Positions 3,134-33,567 of a stretch of 33,567 nt of DNA are shown piece after piece. A program made the position numbers and the translations under genes. Position 1 is the stretch's first letter. Each line of letters begins with the position of its first letter. The DNA comes from Actinomycetes bacterium (lineage in GTDB: Bacteria > Actinomycetota > Acidimicrobiia > Acidimicrobiales > RAAP-2). The stretch covers positions 1-33,567 of the forward strand of contig JAJYQJ010000058.1 in the NCBI GenBank assembly GCA_021794655.1. The letters run 5' to 3'. Below the pieces are notes generated by a model. That model was not told the DNA's origin. It did not search any database and was given only the letters and a program-made list of their open reading frames with translations.

Positions 3134-3391
3134 ATGCCTGATAAGCAGCAGATCATTTCAGAGTATCGTAGCCACGACTGCGACACCGGTTCTCCCGAAG
3201 TGCAGATCGCCCTACTGACGGATCGAATTTCGCATCTGACGGAGCACCTCAAGGTTCACAAGGGTGATCATCACACCCGAAGAGGATTGATGAAGATGAT
3301 AGGTAAGCGCAAGAGACTGCTTGGCTACCTGCGAGACAACGATCTGGAGCGGTATCGATCCGTCATCGCTCGGCTGGGCATCCGCCGCTAA
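3134..3391 (+). CDS. rpsO: 30S ribosomal protein S15
   Basis: S15 binds 16S rRNA in the central domain of the small subunit and helps form bridge B4. Translation from ATG 3134 gives 85 residues, close to the family norm of 88-89. Typical signatures are visible: [25 protein letters not shown], then [21 protein letters not shown] and [12 protein letters not shown] at the end. An in-frame upstream extension to 3083 is open but would add a non-conserved 17-residue tail, so it is rejected. No strong Shine-Dalgarno is adjacent, and GAGG at about 3116 is rather far. Confidence 0.96.
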
Positions 3392-25029: not shown

Positions 25030-25890
25030 GTGAGGCGGGTAGTCAGGTCGATCGCAGTTGCACTATCACTGGCCCTGGGGGGGGGTCTGATCGTTAGTGC
25101 AGGTCCTGTAGGAGCACAGCCACCTGGGGGATCTTCACCTGCAGGACCGGTCGTTGGAGCGCCAGTCTACGGCGGCATAAAAGACGCACCCGATCCAAAC
25201 GTCGTGCCCGTCACCTACGGCACGAACAACACCGCAGCGGTGTTCTCGACCTACTCGTTCACGCCACCGACCTCTGGAACTGAGAGACCACCTGCGATCC
25301 CAGAGTGGACAACCCACGAGAACCCAGGCGGCACGTCTTGGACGACAAATGGCGACCCGAGTGGCGGGTTGGCAAACGTGCCGGGTTGGGCGAGCAAGAA
25401 CCCAGACCACGGGGCCCCTGCGGAGGCCCCAGGGGTCATCCAGATTGGCAGTACCTGGTACATGTACTTCGCAGCCGTGCCAAAGAGCGCGGTTACAGCA
25501 GGTTTAGATGGCGCCTACTGCATAGGTGTTGCCACACTCCCAGCGTCAAAGAGCCTCTTGAACAACCAATTCACCCCGGTTGAAGACACTCCATCTACAG
25601 CCCTTCCGCCGGTTCTCTGTGACCCAACCCACAAGACCGCCTACATAGACCCGAGCCCGTTCTTTGACCCAACGAATGAGACCTACTACTTGAGCTTCAA
25701 GACCAACTCTGCCTCAGGTGGGCCTGGCACCACCCTTTGGTCTATCCCGCTTGTACGTATATATTGCGTCATCACAGACATAGCTACTCCACGCTCTAAC
25801 CCTGCTAGCAACTATGGGGGCTGTGGTGTACCGTCCAACTTCAACGGTTACCCTCGCTCAACCGCTTCTCCTTTCAAGCCCTATAGCTGA
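25030..25890 (+). pseudogene. GH43-like secreted glycosidase, N-terminal fragment, interrupted by an IS
   Basis: The fragment begins with a clear signal peptide (VRRVVRSIAVALSLALGGGLIVSAGPVGA), which favours GTG 25030 behind AGAGAGGGA; GTG 25009 and 24940 are longer options. KDAPDPNVV supplies the expected GH43 general-base Asp, and YIDPSPFFDPTNETYYLSFKT supplies the second acidic residue of the five-bladed propeller. The frame runs into the IS: the codons TAT AGC of the target duplication are followed at once by TGA from the IS end. The third catalytic residue, a Glu, lies in the downstream fragment, so this truncated product should be inactive. The likely original role was degradation of an arabinose- or xylose-type polysaccharide outside the cell; the substrate is inference. 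Confidence 0.85.
25881..25886. repeat. Target-site duplication of the IS, left copy (CTATAG)
   Basis: CTATAG abuts the left terminal repeat and recurs at 31273-31278 on the other side. Keeping one copy restores the GH43-like reading frame. Confidence 0.92.
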
Positions 25891-25918
25891 CGTTCCGCAC
25901 TTCTCGATGACGATATAG
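25887..25918 (+). repeat. IS terminal inverted repeat, left
   Basis: The outer 22 bases, beginning CTGACGTTCCGCACTTCTCG, are identical to the complement of the right end. Mismatches occur only at positions 23 and 26 of the 32-base alignment. Confidence 0.93.
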
Positions 25919-25938
25919 CGTCCCGATTTCGAGCGTGG

Positions 25939-26971
25939 TCACGGGTTATAGGCAGTGATCGGCACGTGAAGGAGGTTGAGGATCTTTATCTGTAGCGCGC
26001 TGAGTTGAGGCTCGAAGACCTGTTCTGTTGCACCTTTGTTCACCAGGCGATGCCGTTGGACGCCGCTGAACAACTCAAGGATGCGAGGAGCACTTGGGGC
26101 TGGACAGTTGCGGAACTCGGGATAGACAGGCATTCCGCTAAGTTCTTCAGCCTTCATCGAGGTGCGAATCTCGCGCTCGATGAGCGCCTCGGTGAGCATA
26201 GCCAAGAAGTGACAGACAAGGATCGCCTCGATGCGGTGTGGGTTCTCCAAGAACACCGGGGCGACTACCTGTGGTCCTTTGAGCATGTGGTTGCGGCGTT
26301 CAAGGTTTGGTTGGTAGTGGTAGGTAGCTAACACCTCGGCCGGGGTCATCTGAGGGTCATTCGTGATGAGTGGGAACATCCCGTCACAGATAGCGTCGTA
26401 GGTGACCTGATCTGCCAACACCTCGGCCGTAATGGTAAACACCGTCTTGTCTCGACTCTTATATAGCGACTCCGTGTTCGCACGTCCACGGCTCACTGGA
26501 CGAAAGGCCTTGACGATGGACTCGCTCAGCGTGAAGCTCACCCACCGGGTCGCTCCAGCCTTAGCTAAAGCGGCCCGTGCTGCCTCCTCAGCAGCCACCT
26601 TGGTCTTAAGACGCGACCTGGGGCTAGCGAGTCTGTCCCTGACCTCTTCGATAGCCGCTAGCCCTGCTTCGATGCGAGTCGAGCGTGACGCTGCGTCGCG
26701 TGATGCCTTCGCGCTCGAATGGACCCAGATCACCCGATAGCCGTCGGCTGAGGGGACCGGTGCCTCAAATACCCGAAACACCGAGTCTGAGTCAACGCTA
26801 CGCGTACCAGGGCAGCGTTTGGCCTCTGCCCATGTAGGAGCGTGAGTCTGGATCCAGTCGCGAAACCAGGTGTCCTCTTTTCGTCCGTGAGGAATAATGG
26901 TCACAAATCGTCCGTTGTTCGAAGCGATGTGGCCCATCGCCTCTTTCGAGCAGAGTTTGGAGTCTGCGACG
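25939..26971 (-). pseudogene. IS1634-type transposase, C-terminal part, cut off by the RIT element
   Basis: This half carries 343 residues of the 565-residue composite transposase, starting with VADSKLCSKEAMGHI. It supplies the second catalytic Asp (D225 in the composite) and the Glu E446 in YHYQPNLERRNHMLK, a Y-x4-E-x6-K signature of IS4-type enzymes. A GTG at 27000 inside the RIT end is in frame and could start a truncated product, MLCAAAHNIYVADSK, but this lacks the first catalytic Asp. Joined to the fragment at 30108-30769 it makes one unbroken frame once the RIT element and one TAGATA are removed. Confidence 0.9.
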
Positions 26972-26977
26972 TAGATA
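26972..26977. repeat. Target-site duplication of the RIT element, left copy (TAGATA)
   Basis: TAGATA here and at 30108-30113 flank the RIT element. One copy plus the flanks rebuilds transposase codons reading SNFIYVADSK. Confidence 0.85.
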
Positions 26978-26997
26978 TTATGTGCAGCTGCACATAA
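26978..26997. repeat. Left-end-only perfect 20-bp palindrome of the RIT element
   Basis: TTATGTGCAGCTGCACATAA is a perfect palindrome made of two inverted copies of the decamer TTATGTGCAG. It lies between the TAGATA copy and the left inverted repeat and has no counterpart outside the right repeat. It could be a recombinase dimer site. Confidence 0.9.
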
Positions 26998-27000
26998 CAC

Positions 27001-27032
27001 CTATTAGGCCCAGCTCCGGATTATGTGCAGTT
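27001..27032 (+). repeat. RIT left inverted repeat (32 bp, perfect)
   Basis: The sequence begins CTATTAGGCCCAGCTCCGGA and ends in the decamer TTATGTGCAG plus TT. It is an exact complement of 30079-30110. A further inverted decamer copy lies at 27109-27118, in the ritA leader, which also holds a small hairpin ACCGCT-TCAG-AGCGGT at 27083-27098. Confidence 0.95.
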
Positions 27033-27162
27033 GCCGGTCAACGGCCTGGACGATCCCCTCTGTAGCTGCATGTTCTCCTTGCACCGCTTCAGAGCGGTCA
27101 CGCGGGAGCTGCACATAATCGCGAGACTTTTCCTTTCTAACCACCTCGGAAGGGAGCAACTC

Positions 27163-28080
27163 ATGACCATTCAGAGTCCATTGACGACCGACGCCGTGCT
27201 CACGGCGTTCGACGACCACCTGCGTCGGGTGCGAGGGGTCTGTCCGGACGTTCGGCGCAACTACGGGTTCTACGCGCGGGGCTTCCTGGAGACAGTGTTC
27301 GGTCAGGACCCCGTAGACTTCGGTCTCCTGTCGGTCGGCGATGTCGTTACGTTCGTCACCAACGCGTCCTGCCGCTATCAGCCTCGAACGGTGCAACTGC
27401 TCACAACCGCACTGCGTTCGCTTCTGCGGTTCGCTCGAGCCGAAGGTCTGAGTGGGTCCCGATTGGACGAGGCGGTCCCGGCGGTCCGTGGGCCAGCCGC
27501 GTCGCCGCCGCGCTACCTCGGACCAGGTGAGCTCACCAGGCTGCTCTCCTCGCTCGACTCCTCCTCGTCACGGGGCCTGCGAGACCGGGCGATGCTGCTC
27601 CTCGGCGCCCGGCTGGGCCTCCGAGCAGGTGAGATCGCCCGGCTCGAGTTCGACGACATCGACTGGCGGTCGGGCACCGTCACGATCCAGACCCGAAAGA
27701 CCGGTCACGGCGCCGTGCTTCCGCTAACCTGTCAGGTGGGCGAGGCTGTCGCCGCCTACCTTAAGCGGGGGCGGCCAGCGAGCGAATCCCGGCGTGTGTT
27801 CGTCTTGCATCGCGAACATGTCGGCGCCCCAATCGATCGTCGAACCGTAGGAGATGCGGTACGCCGGGCGTTGCGCAATGCCGGCATCGAAGCTCCGACC
27901 CATGGGGCGAACCTGCTGCGGCACTCCCTGGCGACCGACCTGGTCGCGCACGGCTCGAACCTGAAGGAGATCGCCGACCTCTTCGGTCATCGGGCGCTCT
28001 CGAGCACCCAGATCTACGCGAAGGTCCACCTCTCGGCGCTGCGCGAGGCCGCACTTCCCTGGCCGGAGGTGACCCGATGA
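27163..28080 (+). CDS. ritA: Tyrosine recombinase, first gene of the RIT trio
   Basis: The 305-residue protein has an N-terminal core-binding SAM-like domain (about 10-100) and a C-terminal catalytic domain. Residues in place are R154 (GLRAGE), K179 (TRKTGHG), R253 (LLRHS), H276 (GHRA) and the nucleophile Y285 (IYAKV). The position of the first His of the H-x-x-R motif is Asn250 (codon AAC), an unusual change in an otherwise intact site. AGGGAG about 8 bases before ATG 27163 decides the start, and the longer frame from 27025 runs through the inverted repeat. The stop overlaps the next gene as ATGA. The protein probably acts with the other two recombinases to move the element. Confidence 0.92.
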   Translation: MTIQSPLTTDAVLTAFDDHLRRVRGVCPDVRRNYGFYARGFLETVFGQDPVDFGLLSVGDVVTFVTNASCRYQPRTVQLLTTALRSLLRFARAEGLSGSRLDEAVPAVRGPAASPPRYLGPGELTRLLSSLDSSSSRGLRDRAMLLLGARLGLRAGEIARLEFDDIDWRSGTVTIQTRKTGHGAVLPLTCQVGEAVAAYLKRGRPASESRRVFVLHREHVGAPIDRRTVGDAVRRALRNAGIEAPTHGANLLRHSLATDLVAHGSNLKEIADLFGHRALSSTQIYAKVHLSALREAALPWPEVTR

Positions 28081-29027
28081 CCAGTACCTTCACCGAACTC
28101 GCCGAGAGCTACGTCGAGATGCGCCGCAGCCTCGGCTACCGGCTTGAGCGTCAAGCCGCCTACCTGCGTTGCTTTGCCGGCTTCTTGGACCGCTCTGGGT
28201 GCGATGGCCCGGTCCCGCTCGCGCTCAGTGTGGAGTGGGCGGCGGCGACCTCCGCCAGCGATCCCCACAATCCCGCTCGTAGGCTCACGGTCGTCCGCGG
28301 GTTCCTCCGCTTTCTTGCCAGCCTCGACGGAGAGACCGAGGTCCCCCCGCCGGGCCTGCTCGGTCCCACCCTTCACCGCACGTCGCCACACGTGTACTCC
28401 GACGAGGAGATCGCCAGCCTGTTGCGGGCCGCGGCAGGACTTTCCCCTTCCGGGGGGCTACGCCCGCACTGTTACGTGACGCTGCTCTCCCTACTCGCCT
28501 GCACCGGGCTACGCATCTCGGAGGCACTCGCCCTCTCGAGAGACGACGTTGACCTCACTGCTGGCGTGCTCAGCGTGCGAGCTGGCAAAGGTGGCAAGTC
28601 CCGCCTCGTCCCCCTACACCCGAGCGCGCTTGAACCCTTGGAGGCCTACGCCTCACTGTGCCACCGATACGGTGCGACGCAGGGGTCGGACGCCTTCTTC
28701 TGCACCGAACGGCAGGAGCGACTCACCTACCCAGCGGTGCGTGGCACTTTCAGGGCACTCCGGCGTCAGCTGGGATGGAGCAGTCAGGGGCGGACGCGAC
28801 TACCGCGCCTCCACGACCTGCGCCACCGAATGGTCGTCAAACGCGTCCTGCTCTGGCACGCGGAGGGAGTCGATGTCAACGCCAAGATGGCCGTGCTCGC
28901 GACCTACCTCGGTCACACTCTCGTCTCCGACCTCTACTGGTATTTCAGCGCGACGCCCGAGCTGATGAACGCAGCTGCCGAGCGGTTCACGACACTGGGC
29001 GACCAGGTGCAAGGAGGTGTCAGATGA
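28077..29027 (+). CDS. ritB: Tyrosine recombinase, second gene of the RIT trio
   Basis: This 316-residue recombinase has the complete catalytic set: R146 (GLRISE), K174 (KGGK), H246 and R249 (HDLRH), H280 (GHT) and Y289 (YWYFSATPEL). YF-ATPEL around the Tyr is, as I recall, characteristic of the middle RIT recombinase. The ATG overlaps the ritA stop (ATGA), so translation is coupled. The N-terminal domain (about 1-95) is a typical helical core-binding domain. The gene is also joined to ritC by ATGA. Confidence 0.92.
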   Translation: MTSTFTELAESYVEMRRSLGYRLERQAAYLRCFAGFLDRSGCDGPVPLALSVEWAAATSASDPHNPARRLTVVRGFLRFLASLDGETEVPPPGLLGPTLHRTSPHVYSDEEIASLLRAAAGLSPSGGLRPHCYVTLLSLLACTGLRISEALALSRDDVDLTAGVLSVRAGKGGKSRLVPLHPSALEPLEAYASLCHRYGATQGSDAFFCTERQERLTYPAVRGTFRALRRQLGWSSQGRTRLPRLHDLRHRMVVKRVLLWHAEGVDVNAKMAVLATYLGHTLVSDLYWYFSATPELMNAAAERFTTLGDQVQGGVR

Positions 29028-30025
29028 GAGCACCCACGATCACCTTTCCTGTTCTCGTCCAGGACTTCTTCCTCCGGCGTCTTGTCGACCAGCGAGGGGT
29101 GAGTGCCCGCACCGTCGAGAGCTATCGTGACGCGTTCGAACTCCTCTTCGCCTTCGTCGAACGGCAAACGGGCAAGAAGCCCTGCGCGCTGTCGCTCGCT
29201 GACCTCGATGCTTCGGTTGTACTCGACTTCCTCGACCATCTGGAGACCGAGCGGGGAAACGGTGCCCGCACCCGCAACGCAAGGCTCGCGGCGATCCGCT
29301 CATTCATGGCCTACGCTTCGGTACGCGATCCGGCCTCTCTACCCGTCGCCCAGCGGGTCCTTGCGATTCCCCAGAAGCGCTTCGACCAGCCGGTCCTCGG
29401 CTACCTCACTCGCGAAGAGATAGCCGCTGTCCTCGACGCCCCGGACGTAAGCACCTGGAGCGGGCAACGCGACGCGGTCCTGCTGGCGACGATGTACAAC
29501 ACCGGCGCGCGGGTCTCGGAGATCACGGGTCTTTGTGTCCGCGACGTCCTCCTCGACCGAGAGGTTGCCGTCCACCTGCACGGCAAGGGGCGCAAGGAGC
29601 GTGCCATCCCGCTGTGGAAGACCACGGCAAGCGAGTTGCGGAGCTGGCTACGACGGATCGACAACGACCCCTCCGCACCGGTCTTCCCGAACCGAACGGG
29701 TAAGCCGCTTACCCGTTCGGGCGTGCGCGACCGGCTCGACCGCGCCGTCTCGGTGGCCGCACAGCGCTGCCCAACGTTGCGAGGCCGCCAGATATCTCCC
29801 CACACCATGCGCCATTCGACGGCAATGCACCTCCTCCAGTCGGGGGTCGATCTGGCCGTCATTGCCCTCTGGCTTGGACACGCCGATCCTGCCACCACCC
29901 ATCAGTACCTGGAGGCTGACCTTGCCACGAAGGAAGCGGCACTGCAACGGTTGGCCGCTCCCGCACACCAGGCGACCAGGTACCGACCGGGCGACAGACT
30001 TCTAGCGTTCCTCGACGGCCTGTGA
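29024..30025 (+). CDS. ritC: Tyrosine recombinase, third gene of the RIT trio
   Basis: The 333-residue protein keeps R163 (TGARVSE), K188/K191 (GKGRKER), H260 and R263 (HTMRHS), H286 (GHAD) and Y295 (HQYLEAD). It is closer to XerD or phage-type integrases than the other two. A strong Shine-Dalgarno AAGGAGG lies 6 bases before ATG 29024, which overlaps the ritB stop. The in-frame extension to 28658 lies within ritB and is rejected. The gene ends 53 bases before the right inverted repeat. Confidence 0.93.
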   Translation: MRAPTITFPVLVQDFFLRRLVDQRGVSARTVESYRDAFELLFAFVERQTGKKPCALSLADLDASVVLDFLDHLETERGNGARTRNARLAAIRSFMAYASVRDPASLPVAQRVLAIPQKRFDQPVLGYLTREEIAAVLDAPDVSTWSGQRDAVLLATMYNTGARVSEITGLCVRDVLLDREVAVHLHGKGRKERAIPLWKTTASELRSWLRRIDNDPSAPVFPNRTGKPLTRSGVRDRLDRAVSVAAQRCPTLRGRQISPHTMRHSTAMHLLQSGVDLAVIALWLGHADPATTHQYLEADLATKEAALQRLAAPAHQATRYRPGDRLLAFLDGL

Positions 30026-30035
30026 TTATGTGCTG
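30026..30035 (+). repeat. Internal decamer copy near the RIT right end
   Basis: TTATGTGCTG differs by one base from the decamer TTATGTGCAG. It pairs in orientation with the copy at 30081-30090, mirroring the pair at 27021 and 27109 on the left. It begins at the last base of the ritC stop codon. Confidence 0.7.
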
Positions 30036-30078
30036 CCCCCAAGCGAACTCACCGCCGGCACAACACCGTATTCGTCGA

Positions 30079-30110
30079 AACTGCACATAATCCGGAGCTG
30101 GGCCTAATAG
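30079..30110 (-). repeat. RIT right inverted repeat (32 bp, perfect)
   Basis: This is the exact complement of 27001-27032. Its outer TAG is shared with the right TAGATA duplication (30108-30113). Read on the minus strand it gives the TAG stop that ends the transposase N-terminal fragment. Confidence 0.95.
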
Positions 30111-30113
30111 ATA
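30108..30113. repeat. Target-site duplication of the RIT element, right copy (TAGATA)
   Basis: It matches 26972-26977. Its first three bases also complete the right inverted repeat, so the exact crossover point within this hexamer cannot be fixed from sequence alone. Confidence 0.82.
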
Positions 30114-30769
30114 AAGTTCGAGTGACCTACCAAGGCACGTAGCTCATCCCAAGTCGGGATGTGGGTAATGTCATCAGGGGTGTTACCATCTTCGACCCGG
30201 TAGGCAATCGGCACGGCACCGTCAGCTGAGATCGTGAGCACGAACAGCAGTTGCAATAGGTCTGGACGGAAATCCTTATTGTGGCCATGCGCTGGCTTGG
30301 CTACTGCCCTGCCGCCTCGATTCTCGCCGCCGCCTGGGTAGTGCGTTCCAGTGAGAGTGATCGTCGTCGAATCGTTATGAAGCTGTTCGAGCAATAGGTC
30401 GAACTCTCGGACTACTCCGAGTACGGTTTGGGTGATCAAGGTTGCCCTATCCGCGTCGAATAGGCGGTCGAGCGTACGCCCGACCCGGTCGTCATTGAAC
30501 GCCGCTATTCCATCAGGGCCAAGTCCTAAAACACTAGGGTCAAACGGCCCTGCCCATTCACCGAGGGCATAAAGGGGCCGGTGGCTAACGATGATGTTAC
30601 GAAGCACCACGCCGATTACGTCTGCTGGTGCGAGCCGCAGGCGGACATCGTCTCTTGGGATCGCGTGCTCCAAGTGCTCAGCTATGCCTATGCGCGATAA
30701 GAACCAGTTGATGATCGGCAATGCTCCGATGGTCTCGCTTTCAAGTTCGAACCTCTTCTCCTCGCTCAT
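30108..30769 (-). pseudogene. IS1634-type transposase, N-terminal part, cut off by the RIT element
   Basis: This fragment encodes the first 222 residues (counting the upstream ATG at 30772) and ends SNFIY before a TAG contributed by the RIT end at 30104-30106. It contains the first catalytic Asp, D134 in LHNDSTTITLTG, and the block HGHNKDFRPDLLQLLFVLTISADG typical of IS1634-like enzymes. AAGGAGG sits 4 bases before ATG 30769 on the minus strand, so that ATG is preferred. Without the later parts of the catalytic core it cannot be active alone. Confidence 0.9.
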
Positions 30770-30778
30770 CATGCCTCC

Positions 30779-30819
30779 TTGACATCTCGTCCTATAGCGG
30801 GCAGTATAGTAACTGCCCG
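30779..30819. promoter_or_regulatory. Divergent promoter region of the IS with inverted-repeat operator
   Basis: CGGGCAGT (30798-30805) and ACTGCCCG (30812-30819) form a perfect 8-bp inverted repeat. Its centre contains TATAGT on the plus strand (30805-30810) and TATACT on the minus strand (30808-30803), so -10 elements for both divergent genes overlap. TTGACA at 30779-30784 could be a -35 for the plus strand, but its 20-base spacing to TATAGT is long. A shared repressor or promoter symmetry is inferred. Confidence 0.55.
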
Positions 30820-30854
30820 GCCACTAAGCGCGGATACTCAACAAAGGAAAGAAG

Positions 30855-31202
30855 ATGGTTAGCCGACTCGAACGCTACGAAACTAAGTACCGCTCACTCG
30901 TCTCAGAGCTAGACGACCTTGGATTCATCATCTCAGGTAGCCTCGTGGTCCGAGAGACGACATGTGGTAAGCCGGGGTGTCGCTGCATGGGGGATCCCCC
31001 ACAACGCCACGGTCCATACTTTCAGTGGAGCAATAAAGTTGATGGCAAGACGGTAACCCGTCGGCTAAGCGAGGCAGAAGCGGAGCTCTACCGTGAATGG
31101 ATCACCAATAGGCGTCGCATGAAACGTATTATCGCCCAGATGGAGAAGGTGTCAGCTGCAGCAGGTGAAATCCTGCTCCGGGGAGTCGCCAATAAGGCAT
31201 AG
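30855..31202 (+). CDS. IS-associated small protein of DUF6788 type
   Basis: The 115-residue protein has an N-terminal helical region (RLERYETKYRSLVSELDDLG). A conserved block follows: GSLVVRETTCGKPGCRCMGDPPQRHGPYFQWSNK, with three Cys (C-x4-C-x-C) that may bind metal. A basic C-terminal helix (EWITNRRRMKRIIAQMEKV) follows. From memory it matches DUF6788-type proteins, which occur beside IS1634-like and other transposases. Its function is unknown; a role in transposition control or DNA binding is inference. ATG 30855 follows AAAGGAAAG at a suitable distance. It is divergent from the transposase and inside the IS ends, so it moves with the element. It appears intact. Confidence 0.8.
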   Translation: MVSRLERYETKYRSLVSELDDLGFIISGSLVVRETTCGKPGCRCMGDPPQRHGPYFQWSNKVDGKTVTRRLSEAEAELYREWITNRRRMKRIIAQMEKVSAAAGEILLRGVANKA

Positions 31203-31240
31203 TCCAGATAAGTACGACGCTGACCAGGGTGACTAGAATG

Positions 31241-31272
31241 CTATATAGTGATCGAGAAGTGCGGAACGTCAG
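31241..31272 (-). repeat. IS terminal inverted repeat, right
   Basis: This is the complement of the left end (25887-25918), with 30 of 32 positions identical. The direct repeat CTATAG follows immediately. Confidence 0.93.
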
Positions 31273-31278
31273 CTATAG
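31273..31278. repeat. Target-site duplication of the IS, right copy (CTATAG)
   Basis: Identical to 25881-25886. The hexamer is itself a palindrome. Confidence 0.92.
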
Positions 31279-33567
31279 CCCACCAACTCCTAGTGCCCTG
31301 CTGAGTGCTGGTGCGAACCAGCCTCTTTCGAACTCGGTCGGGCTGTGGACTCAAGGGATCATAGAGAACCCTGACATGGTCGAGGCTAACAACACCTATA
31401 GGCTCTACTACTCAGGCGGCTACTGGGGGAACAACTCCTATAGCGAAGGCTGGGCGTCGTGTAGTGGGCCAAGTGGACCCTGTGTCGACGGAGGAGAGAT
31501 CCTCGCGACGGGTTCCACGTTGAATGGACCAGGTGGGGGCTCTTGGTTCCAGGATCTATTGAATCCAAGTGTAAACAGCCCAGGTACTGGGTCGTTGGCT
31601 GTCCACAGCTGGGACAATCAGGACTGCTCTGGGGTAACTTCTCCGAGTAGCTGCTACTTTCCACCGCCTAACACACAGGCAAACGGCACGCCCTGCAACG
31701 GTGCTTCCTTCCCCTATGCATGCCGCAGCCTCTACTTCGTCTCTGATACTCAGATGCTAAAGCCGATCTTTGTGAGTTCGAACCACTTCAGCGATGAACT
31801 TGGCACTGCGATGAACGACTCTGTCGTGACATCTGCGACGCCAGCGGCCACTATCGCAGTCGCACCTGGGTCCTCTCTTCCCTCAGGTGTAAGCCTCGTC
31901 GACAACCGAGACGGTACTGCGAAGCTTGAGCTGAGTACGAACACAGCTCCTGGCATCCACCACTTCGATCTTGAAGCTTCAAACATCGCTGGATCGACCA
32001 CACAGAGCTTCACCTTGACTTTCTACACACCACTTGCTTTTACGAGCCCCTCTAGTTTGACCGTGACAGCCGGCAAGTCGTCTTCGTTCGAGGTGACCAC
32101 GAGTGGCTACCCGACGCCTTCTTTGTCCATGTATCCCTTTGGCGACTACTACGACTGGCTCTATTCGCTCTGGTCTGGGCTCCCCTTTGGGATCAGCTTT
32201 ACTGACAACAAAAACGGCACCGGCACTCTCTTTGTTGGACCTAACGCGCCTGTTGGCTTGTTCCGGGTAATGTTTTATGCCAACAACTCGATCGACGACT
32301 CTGCCACCCAACTGTTCTCCTTGAATGTCGTGAACAACGTGCCAGCTGGAACCAAAGTCAACGGTATAGGCACCTCAGACGGCTTTCCGATCCTCTATTG
32401 GTTAAGCCCGGCGCAACTGCAGATTCAAGGTTGTGCTGACGCGACCAGAGCCACCTACAAGGTGACAGCTGTCAACACCGAGACGAACAAGTACCAAAGC
32501 GTAACTGGCACACTTACCGAGACCTCCAAGGGCAGTGGCCTCTACGATGCAACTATCCCGCCGCTCTATCCCCTACACGGCCTAGCTACGATTACGACCA
32601 GGCTCACCTGCCCAGGTGGAAAGCTCGAGACAGAGTCCTTCGATATCTTCATAGACCCAGGCGGCAGAGTCATAGACACCTCGTCAAACCCAGTGCCCCA
32701 AGCAACTGTCACCTTGCTTGAAGCGCCAAGTGCCTCTGGGCCTTTTACCCCGGTGCCAAGTGGCTCGAACCTGCTCTCTCCTGGAACCCCGTCCAACCCG
32801 GAGACAACGAATCCCTTTGGTGGCTTTGGCTGGGACACTTTGCCTGGCTACTACGAGGTGAGCGCGTCTGCTCCAGGGTGCTCTAACCCGTTTGATCCAT
32901 CGAATCCAGATGTTGTGAGCAAAGTCTTCAAAGTCCCACCGGCTATGAACAGCCTCGTCCTTACGATGAGCTGTGTGAGATCTGCACCAGCGTTTAGCTC
33001 TGGGGCAAGAGACACAGTGCGTGCAGGTAAGAGCTTTTCCTTCCCGATCTCGACAACTGGCTCACCAAGTGCTTTAATCTCGCTTCTTCCAGGCTCTTCT
33101 CTGCCCTCAGGTGTGAGCCTCATCAACGGCGGAGATGGGACGGCAACCCTTGTCGGCACATCTAGTGTTCAACCCGGCGTCTACAGCTTTGATCTCGGAG
33201 CTATCAACAGCGTCGGAGCCAGCGTTGACAACTTCGCCTTAGAGGTGTTAGCCCCACCGGTGTTTATCTCAGCTGACACCTACTCAACCTCATCAGGCAC
33301 GCCGTTTTCCTTTAGAGTTGCAGCTAGTGGCTCCCCCTATCCAGGGATCGGTCCTACCTCGTCTGCCTCCTTGCCCCCTCACGTATCTGTGACGAGCAAC
33401 GCTGATGGCACAGCAACAATCAGTGGATCTGGGACCTTAGCTCCTGGAACGTATCCATTTGACCTGTGGGCGATCAACGACCAAGGATACGCTCTAGAAC
33501 CCTTTACCCTGGTAATAACAGCTCCACTGCCACAGATCTCTCTTCGCTTCAGAGGGGCTCTTGACTA
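31274..33567 (+). pseudogene. GH43-like secreted glycosidase, C-terminal fragment with Ig-like repeats (runs off the window)
   Basis: In the frame that continues the 25030-25890 fragment, this stretch is open to the last base. It starts with the missing GH43 part: IIENPDMVEANNTYRLYYSGG supplies the catalytic-acid Glu, followed by YSEGWASCSGPSGPC. After the propeller come at least three putative-Ig (He_PIG-like) repeats with the pattern LPSGVSL-DN-DGTA-L...PG-Y-F-L-A-N, near 31790, 33000 and 33250, and a different domain around 32340-32960. Such tails are common on large secreted glycosidases. ATG 31238, in the IS right end, is in frame and could start a protein without a signal peptide. Confidence 0.85.

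Follow-up and report, generated by a model that had tools for sequence, protein, structure and literature searches.

A one-sided palindromic scar in a RIT element nested within an IS1634-family transposase gene, and a two-core model for its integration

Introduction

How does an element with three recombinase genes and perfect inverted repeats come to lie inside the transposase gene of an insertion sequence (IS) that itself interrupts another gene, and why does it carry 26 extra bases at only one of its ends? These questions are raised by positions 25,030 to 33,567 of a contig from an Acidimicrobiales actinomycete (lineage RAAP-2; assembly GCA_021794655.1, contig JAJYQJ010000058.1). The whole stretch, 33,567 nucleotides, is referred to here as the window; it is one of 155 contigs (C12) of a 2.7-Mb draft genome, the single genome of its genus in our comparison set. 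The inner element is a RIT (recombinase in trio). RITs are widespread, yet their ends have been described as variable, and their target specificity and movement are listed as untested (PMC10214605). The nesting of RITs in genes of mobile genetic elements (MGEs) is already known and ordinary: in Cupriavidus metallidurans CH34, ritA1B1C1 and ritA2B2C2 lie in IS66 tnpA and radC (PMC2864759), and in Acidithiobacillus a RIT lies inside a Tn6049-type transposase. The latter study noted "sequence variation at the ends" and an "overlapping palindromic sequence", and gave no account of the palindrome (PMC3414803). What is new here is the one-sided footprint of the RIT and its interpretation, with priority for the palindrome itself uncertain.

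Results

The nesting can be undone layer by layer. Excision of the RIT (26978-30107) with one copy of TAGATA yields a 565-aa transposase with no stop and with D134, D225 and E446 in place. An intact IS1634 paralogue from the same genome (L115, contig C137) aligns to it at 64% over 559 aa with 0 gaps, the RIT junction FIY/VADSK included, and the two halves each match NF033559 (IS1634) separately, over adjoining parts of the profile (212-482 and 38-213). Excision of the IS with one CTATAG in turn restores to the outer gene a 1,048-aa frame with no stop, open to the contig end, and here too the genome holds an intact paralogue (L114, contig C125; 72% over 1,076 aa), colinear across the IS junction. 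This three-layer arrangement, including the 565-residue transposase and the restored outer frame, had been proposed by a sequence-only reading of the locus, and all of it was reproduced; the outcome which that reading had set against itself, namely that the halves of either gene belong to different families, did not occur, as the two colinear alignments attest. Its claim that the IS arrived first and the RIT second holds in part: the RIT surely entered an existing IS, but a composite of IS and RIT with intact IS ends may have entered the outer gene later, a less parsimonious route that would depend on transposase supplied in trans. Its view that both events are recent is consistent with the perfect repeats and intact frames in the one genome of the genus that was compared. 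One might also suspect that a RIT contig was misjoined into the IS during assembly, as the draft is fragmented and RITs in other drafts often form isolated contigs of about 3 kb. We consider such an artefact vanishingly unlikely, because at both junctions the reading frames are recovered exactly, together with conserved motifs, and the same architecture recurs in complete plasmids.

The RIT itself has the expected anatomy, with ritA, ritB and ritC in that order, overlapping by 4 nt each (28077-28080 and 29024-29027), between terminal inverted repeats that are perfect over 29 bp (32 bp with the adjoining CTA), in line with the ~30-bp repeats of RITs. The two ends nevertheless differ. On the ritA side, 26 extra bases, TTATGTGCAGCTGCACATAA-CACCTA, stand between the repeat and TAGATA; on the other side there are none. 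TTATGTGCAGCTGCACATAA is the sole perfect 20-nt palindrome in the window, where shuffled 8.8-kb controls average 0.01. The sequence-only reading had correctly begun the RIT at 26978, and had overlooked that 26978-27003 lies outside the inverted repeat, which we regard as the most informative feature of the locus.

Taken alone, the window would fit a conventional transposon whose two ends (26978-30107) are asymmetric and fixed, with a 6-bp duplication and a palindrome that belongs to the ritA end, since the RIT and one TAGATA excise cleanly. We looked at RitB relatives from Actinomycetota genomes and plasmids, located their paired repeats by alignment and, starting 6 nt beyond each repeat, scored the next 20 nt for palindrome pairing. 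Within +/-14 nt, the position giving the best palindrome was taken as the repeat start; individual scores are therefore optimistic, yet the two sides differ widely. In 32/32 script-parsed RITs a palindrome (7-10 of 10 pairs) is found on one side, and the other side reaches at most 6/10. The palindrome lies at the ritA end in 16 of these and at the ritC end in 16. Two further RITs that the script had mis-registered fit on inspection by eye (L123, ritA side; L127, ritC side), so that the one-sided architecture extends to 34/34 RITs with sides divided 17:17; L065 was set by hand. Fixed asymmetric ends are thus very unlikely, and they are contradicted outright by near-identical copies in one plasmid that bear the scar on opposite ends. 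The hexamers flanking the elements agree in a mean of 4.94 of 6 positions, where permuted pairs give 2.03 (highest value 2.88 in 5,000 permutations), and they are identical in 15/32. The inner hexamer, between palindrome and repeat, equals a flank exactly in 12/32, agreement being rarer than between flanks. Elements with no clear paired repeats were left out (L044, L050, L053, L063, L064, L067, L082, L084, L086, L122, L126, L129-L131); L046 and L049 are truncated where their contigs end, L059 has one visible flank beyond the hexamer, and L026 (Arthrobacter C2) is degraded and uninformative. RitB matches occur in 689 plasmid records, many of which, at the weak end, may be other recombinases; viral contigs held no RitB relative.

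How could such a footprint arise? In our account, an IS1634-family element with a DUF6788 passenger entered the outer gene and duplicated CTATAG; a RIT entered the transposase gene of this IS immediately ahead of the second catalytic aspartate, with duplication of TATCTA. Movement of the RIT is most likely by way of a circle with a palindromic joint, in the order terminal inverted repeat, N6', 20-bp palindrome, N6, terminal inverted repeat, and this joint (attP) would contain one tyrosine-recombinase core site twice, in inverted orientation. Either core could recombine with a 6-bp target, so that the RIT lands in either orientation, and the unused core and palindrome would be left on one side as a 26-bp scar whose hexamer is an imprint of an earlier target. 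Integration through either core would account for the random orientation, for the imprint in the hexamer and for a scar whose position is fixed with respect to the target. From comparison of the elements we infer both the circle and a crossover at the hexamer; movement may be by cut-and-paste or by copy-out.

Near-identical copies in rhizobia bear most directly on this model. Sinorhizobium medicae T10 has three RIT copies whose sequences differ in no more than 1 nt. Copy 1 carries the palindrome on the ritC side, with flanks GCAGGT/GCAGGT and inner hexamer TGCCGT; copy 2 carries it on the ritA side, with flanks TGCCGT/GGCGGT and inner hexamer GCAGGT; and copy 3 is again of the ritC type, with flanks TGCCGT/GCAGGT and inner (G)GCGGT. 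From copy 3 to 2 and from 2 to 1 the side flips, and each copy of the pair has as its inner hexamer one that flanks its partner. S. meliloti LMB1 adds a third side-flipped, hexamer-swapped pair. Such swaps are to be expected if a circle integrates through its inner core, without being proof of it. A different explanation is that RITs insert one way and later invert in place between inverted cores, giving the 50:50 ratio. The plain-flank hexamer with its repeat and the inner hexamer with its repeat are indeed inverted copies of each other (exactly so in the 12/32 above), and the Arthrobacter RIT contig L025, which bears the same 80 nt at both ends, is what a mixture of orientations could give. 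As a sole cause, however, inversion is disfavoured by two Mesorhizobium AR02 copies with common flanks (about 95% over 1.4 and 2.3 kb) and opposite RIT orientation, in which the asymmetric palindrome centre has flipped together with the RIT: inversion of the RIT alone would have left the centre as it was, and reintegration via the other core requires the flip. The LMB1 and T10 RITs in the same IS66 site likewise point in opposite directions; their palindromes occupy the same flank, and their inner hexamers differ. We judge in-place inversion to be quite unlikely.

If the inner hexamer is an imprint, CACCTA may tell where the window RIT came from. It differs from the window target TATCTA and equals the IS3 OrfB GDITY target of Arthrobacter relatives. 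As CACCTA is the target of close relatives, the RIT probably came from an IS3-type transposase, and CACCTA would record that site. Among these relatives, L024 (from an actinomycete metagenome-assembled genome) and the Arthrobacter terrae RIT (three contigs joined via 127-nt overlaps) share the same insert at the ritC end and lie in IS3-type OrfB genes, at the WVADFTY / GDITY motif. In L025 the 80 nt at 1-80 and 3138-3217, IS flank included, are inverted relative to each other, which could reflect a pair of insertions in opposite directions, an inversion in place or an error of assembly.

The genes that RITs enter are also telling. Excision of RIT, scar and one hexamer restores conserved motifs, catalytic ones of transposases, integrases, IstB, helicase and ArdC-like proteins among them: IS3 OrfB GDITY, IS21 IstA WDYG and VDYG, and IstB VDE; it likewise restores IS256 CVVHLIRN, IS66, IS1634 and integrase HxxRH targets, as well as TraA-type helicase VVDEA, ArdC-like HExxH, Rpn-type LIEHQ and DUF736. 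Frame-shift controls on the joined flanks discriminate poorly, one flank alone often having a long open reading frame, and Pfam domains spanning the junction were used instead. Most of those tested do span it: rve, Phage_integrase (three), AAA_30, Transposase_mut, IstB_IS21, DDE_Tnp_1, DDE_Tnp_IS66 (L068, L074), MPTase-PolyVal (three), Transposase_31 and DUF736. In three IS66 targets (L075, L076, L121) the junction falls on the edge of the DDE domain or outside it, which supports the target family and not domain continuity. These assignments leave out L052, L059, L065, L083, L119, L125 and L128. Five plasmid RITs (L078, L081, L087, L118, L120) sit in ArdC-like zincin genes at HExxH, and four (L077, L080, L041, L127) in tyrosine-recombinase genes at HxxRH. 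Two of these genes are RitB-like, so RITs may interrupt other RITs. The scar side of a further RIT (L132, G298 C267, 1-46), whose contig breaks off within the repeat, lies near GTPQG, apparently, as judged by eye, in a group II intron reverse transcriptase.

Table 1. Features of the nested locus, in window coordinates.
Feature	Coordinates	Strand	Remarks
Outer gene, 5' part	25030..25886	+	last 6 nt are the left CTATAG; joined open reading frame and paralogue L114
Left IS target duplication CTATAG	25881..25886	.	hexamer read in sequence
IS1634-family element incl. nested RIT	25887..31272	.	5,386 bp; ends CTGACGTTCCGCAC...; 39-nt arms; NF033559
IS1634 transposase, C-terminal part (D225, E446)	25939..26977	-	profile matches; L115 alignment
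RIT target hexamer TAGATA, palindrome side	26972..26977	.	read in sequence
20-bp perfect palindrome TTATGTGCAGCTGCACATAA of the one-sided scar	26978..26997	.	palindrome scan, relatives' parse
Inner hexamer CACCTA	26998..27003	+	between palindrome and left repeat
Left RIT terminal inverted repeat	27004..27032	+	perfect 29 bp
Subterminal inverted arm CTGCACATAA, left end	27109..27118	-	motif search of window
ritA, tyrosine recombinase, 305 aa	27163..28080	+	Phage_integrase E=1e-31
ritB, tyrosine recombinase, 316 aa	28077..29027	+	Phage_integrase E=1e-18
ritC, tyrosine recombinase, 333 aa	29024..30025	+	Phage_integrase E=2e-31
Subterminal inverted arm TTATGTGCTG, right end	30026..30035	+	motif search of window
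Right RIT terminal inverted repeat	30079..30107	-	perfect 29 bp
RIT target hexamer TAGATA, plain side	30108..30113	.	read in sequence
IS1634 transposase, N-terminal part (DUF4277; D134)	30108..30772	-	profile matches; L115 alignment
DUF6788 passenger gene of IS	30855..31202	+	divergent from transposase; Pfam PF20586, E=3e-32
Right IS target duplication CTATAG	31273..31278	.	hexamer read in sequence
Outer gene, remainder	31279..33567	+	runs open to contig end; joined open reading frame and paralogue L114

The remaining features of the locus (Table 1) complete the picture. Within the window, TTATGTGCAG-type arms are confined to the RIT ends. The G+C content of the RIT, 65.7% vs 56% for the IS and outer gene, is consistent with a foreign origin. 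RitA residues R154, K179, R253, H276 and Y285 are conserved among close relatives, and in the R..HxxR..Y catalytic pattern N250 replaces the first His, in relatives likewise; the catalytic motifs of RitB and RitC were read by eye only. RitA of RIT elements has been described with two core-binding domains (PMC8138268), and the window RitA, at 305 aa, compares with 400-425 aa in most relatives; a short RitA of about 305-320 aa is found throughout its clade (L021-L025), and that of L125/L128 has 515 aa. No fourth accessory protein of the Srap/GinD/TnpC type lies between the RIT repeats, which enclose three recombinase genes only, and an Rfam search gave no match.

The terminal arms of the IS extend over 39 nt at 95% complementarity with the hexamers counted in. 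In L115 the hexamer adjoining the IS tip is not conserved, which supports the reading of CTATAG as duplicated target rather than as repeat sequence. A similar open reading frame, recognised by eye and not by Pfam, lies at the place of the DUF6788 gene inside the terminal repeats of L116 (635-976), and the comparison suggests a conserved passenger or accessory protein of this IS1634 subgroup. The outer gene is of a cell-surface type, its product a secreted, repeat-rich protein. The sequence-only reading had called it GH43-like; the joined protein scores 16.2 bits (E=0.007) against Pfam Glyco_hydro_43, below the gathering cut-off of 32.2, so the identity is at best weak, and an AlphaFold model of the L114 paralogue made to test it was unusable (pLDDT 27). 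The outer gene and L114 (G000 C125) both reach the end of their contig at one and the same residue (LRFRGAL), where a repeat common to the two probably interrupted the assembly. The beginning of the contig (window 1-1797) encodes another secreted-type protein, with repeated "GYWEVASDGGIFAFGDAxFYGSMGG" units.

Discussion

We consider the account as a whole, nested insertion together with integration of a circle through one of two cores, quite probable. We also lean, with more reserve, towards its broader form, in which a palindromic attP with two interchangeable cores would give random orientation and a scar recording an earlier target, and RITs would be hyperparasites aimed at conserved catalytic codons of other MGEs, in genes for transposases, integrases, relaxase helicases and ArdC. 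Several points weigh against these readings. The circle, the sequence of its joint and the movement itself are unobserved. About half of the RITs have no exact 6-bp duplication, so the outcome at the hexamer varies: some flank pairs look like a combination of one target with one carried hexamer, others like two copies of the target. Simple strand exchange predicts the mixed type; for a target duplicated on both flanks, the state found in the window, either mismatch repair, matching hexamers or a copy-in step is needed. Palindrome scores are somewhat inflated by the +/-14 nt choice, though the other side still never exceeds 6/10. The hexamer-swapped pairs were recognised after the fact, and with a small pool of IS66 hexamers sharing may partly be chance, at an estimated 1 in 18 or so per pair. 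Finally, the inner spacer is 5 nt long in one of the S. medicae copies.

It is also possible that RITs move in the manner of SE or Tn554 elements, through a copy-out circle with a 6-bp flank fingerprint, and that the palindrome serves a replicative or strand-biased step rather than a second core. SEs do leave 6-bp footprints of the donor flank (PMC10214605), and multiple identical RIT copies in one plasmid would fit such a route. But SEs need four proteins including Srap and have a fixed polarity, whereas RITs have three recombinases and are found in both orientations, and we regard this explanation as unlikely.

The one-sided palindrome explains the variation of RIT ends and gives exact boundaries for annotation. 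The questions of why there are three recombinases and how RITs move are turned by the two-core account into a testable model with a defined attP. If the inner hexamer does record earlier sites, it offers a way to trace them for single RITs and hence a readable insertion history.

The outer element resembles other IS1634-family insertion sequences in its NF033559 transposase, terminal inverted repeats and short direct repeats; it differs in its divergent DUF6788 gene, common to L116, and in its inactivation by the RIT. Tn554-family elements are recombinase-based transposons with a TnpABC set and carry-over of a 6-bp flank; to our knowledge they have neither a ritABC trio nor terminal inverted repeats of the RIT type. 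The multi-integrase islands SE and GInt also employ several tyrosine recombinases in concert and exchange a 6-bp footprint (PMC10214605), and differ in being larger, in having a fourth protein (Srap/GinD) and in having no described two-core palindrome. The RITs of CH34 and Acidithiobacillus share with the window element the three overlapping ritABC genes, the terminal inverted repeats and insertion into genes of MGEs. Compared with these, the window RIT is shorter (3.1 vs about 3.4 kb), has a RitA of 305 aa and an IS1634 transposase gene as host, and in it the one-sided palindromic scar is resolved.

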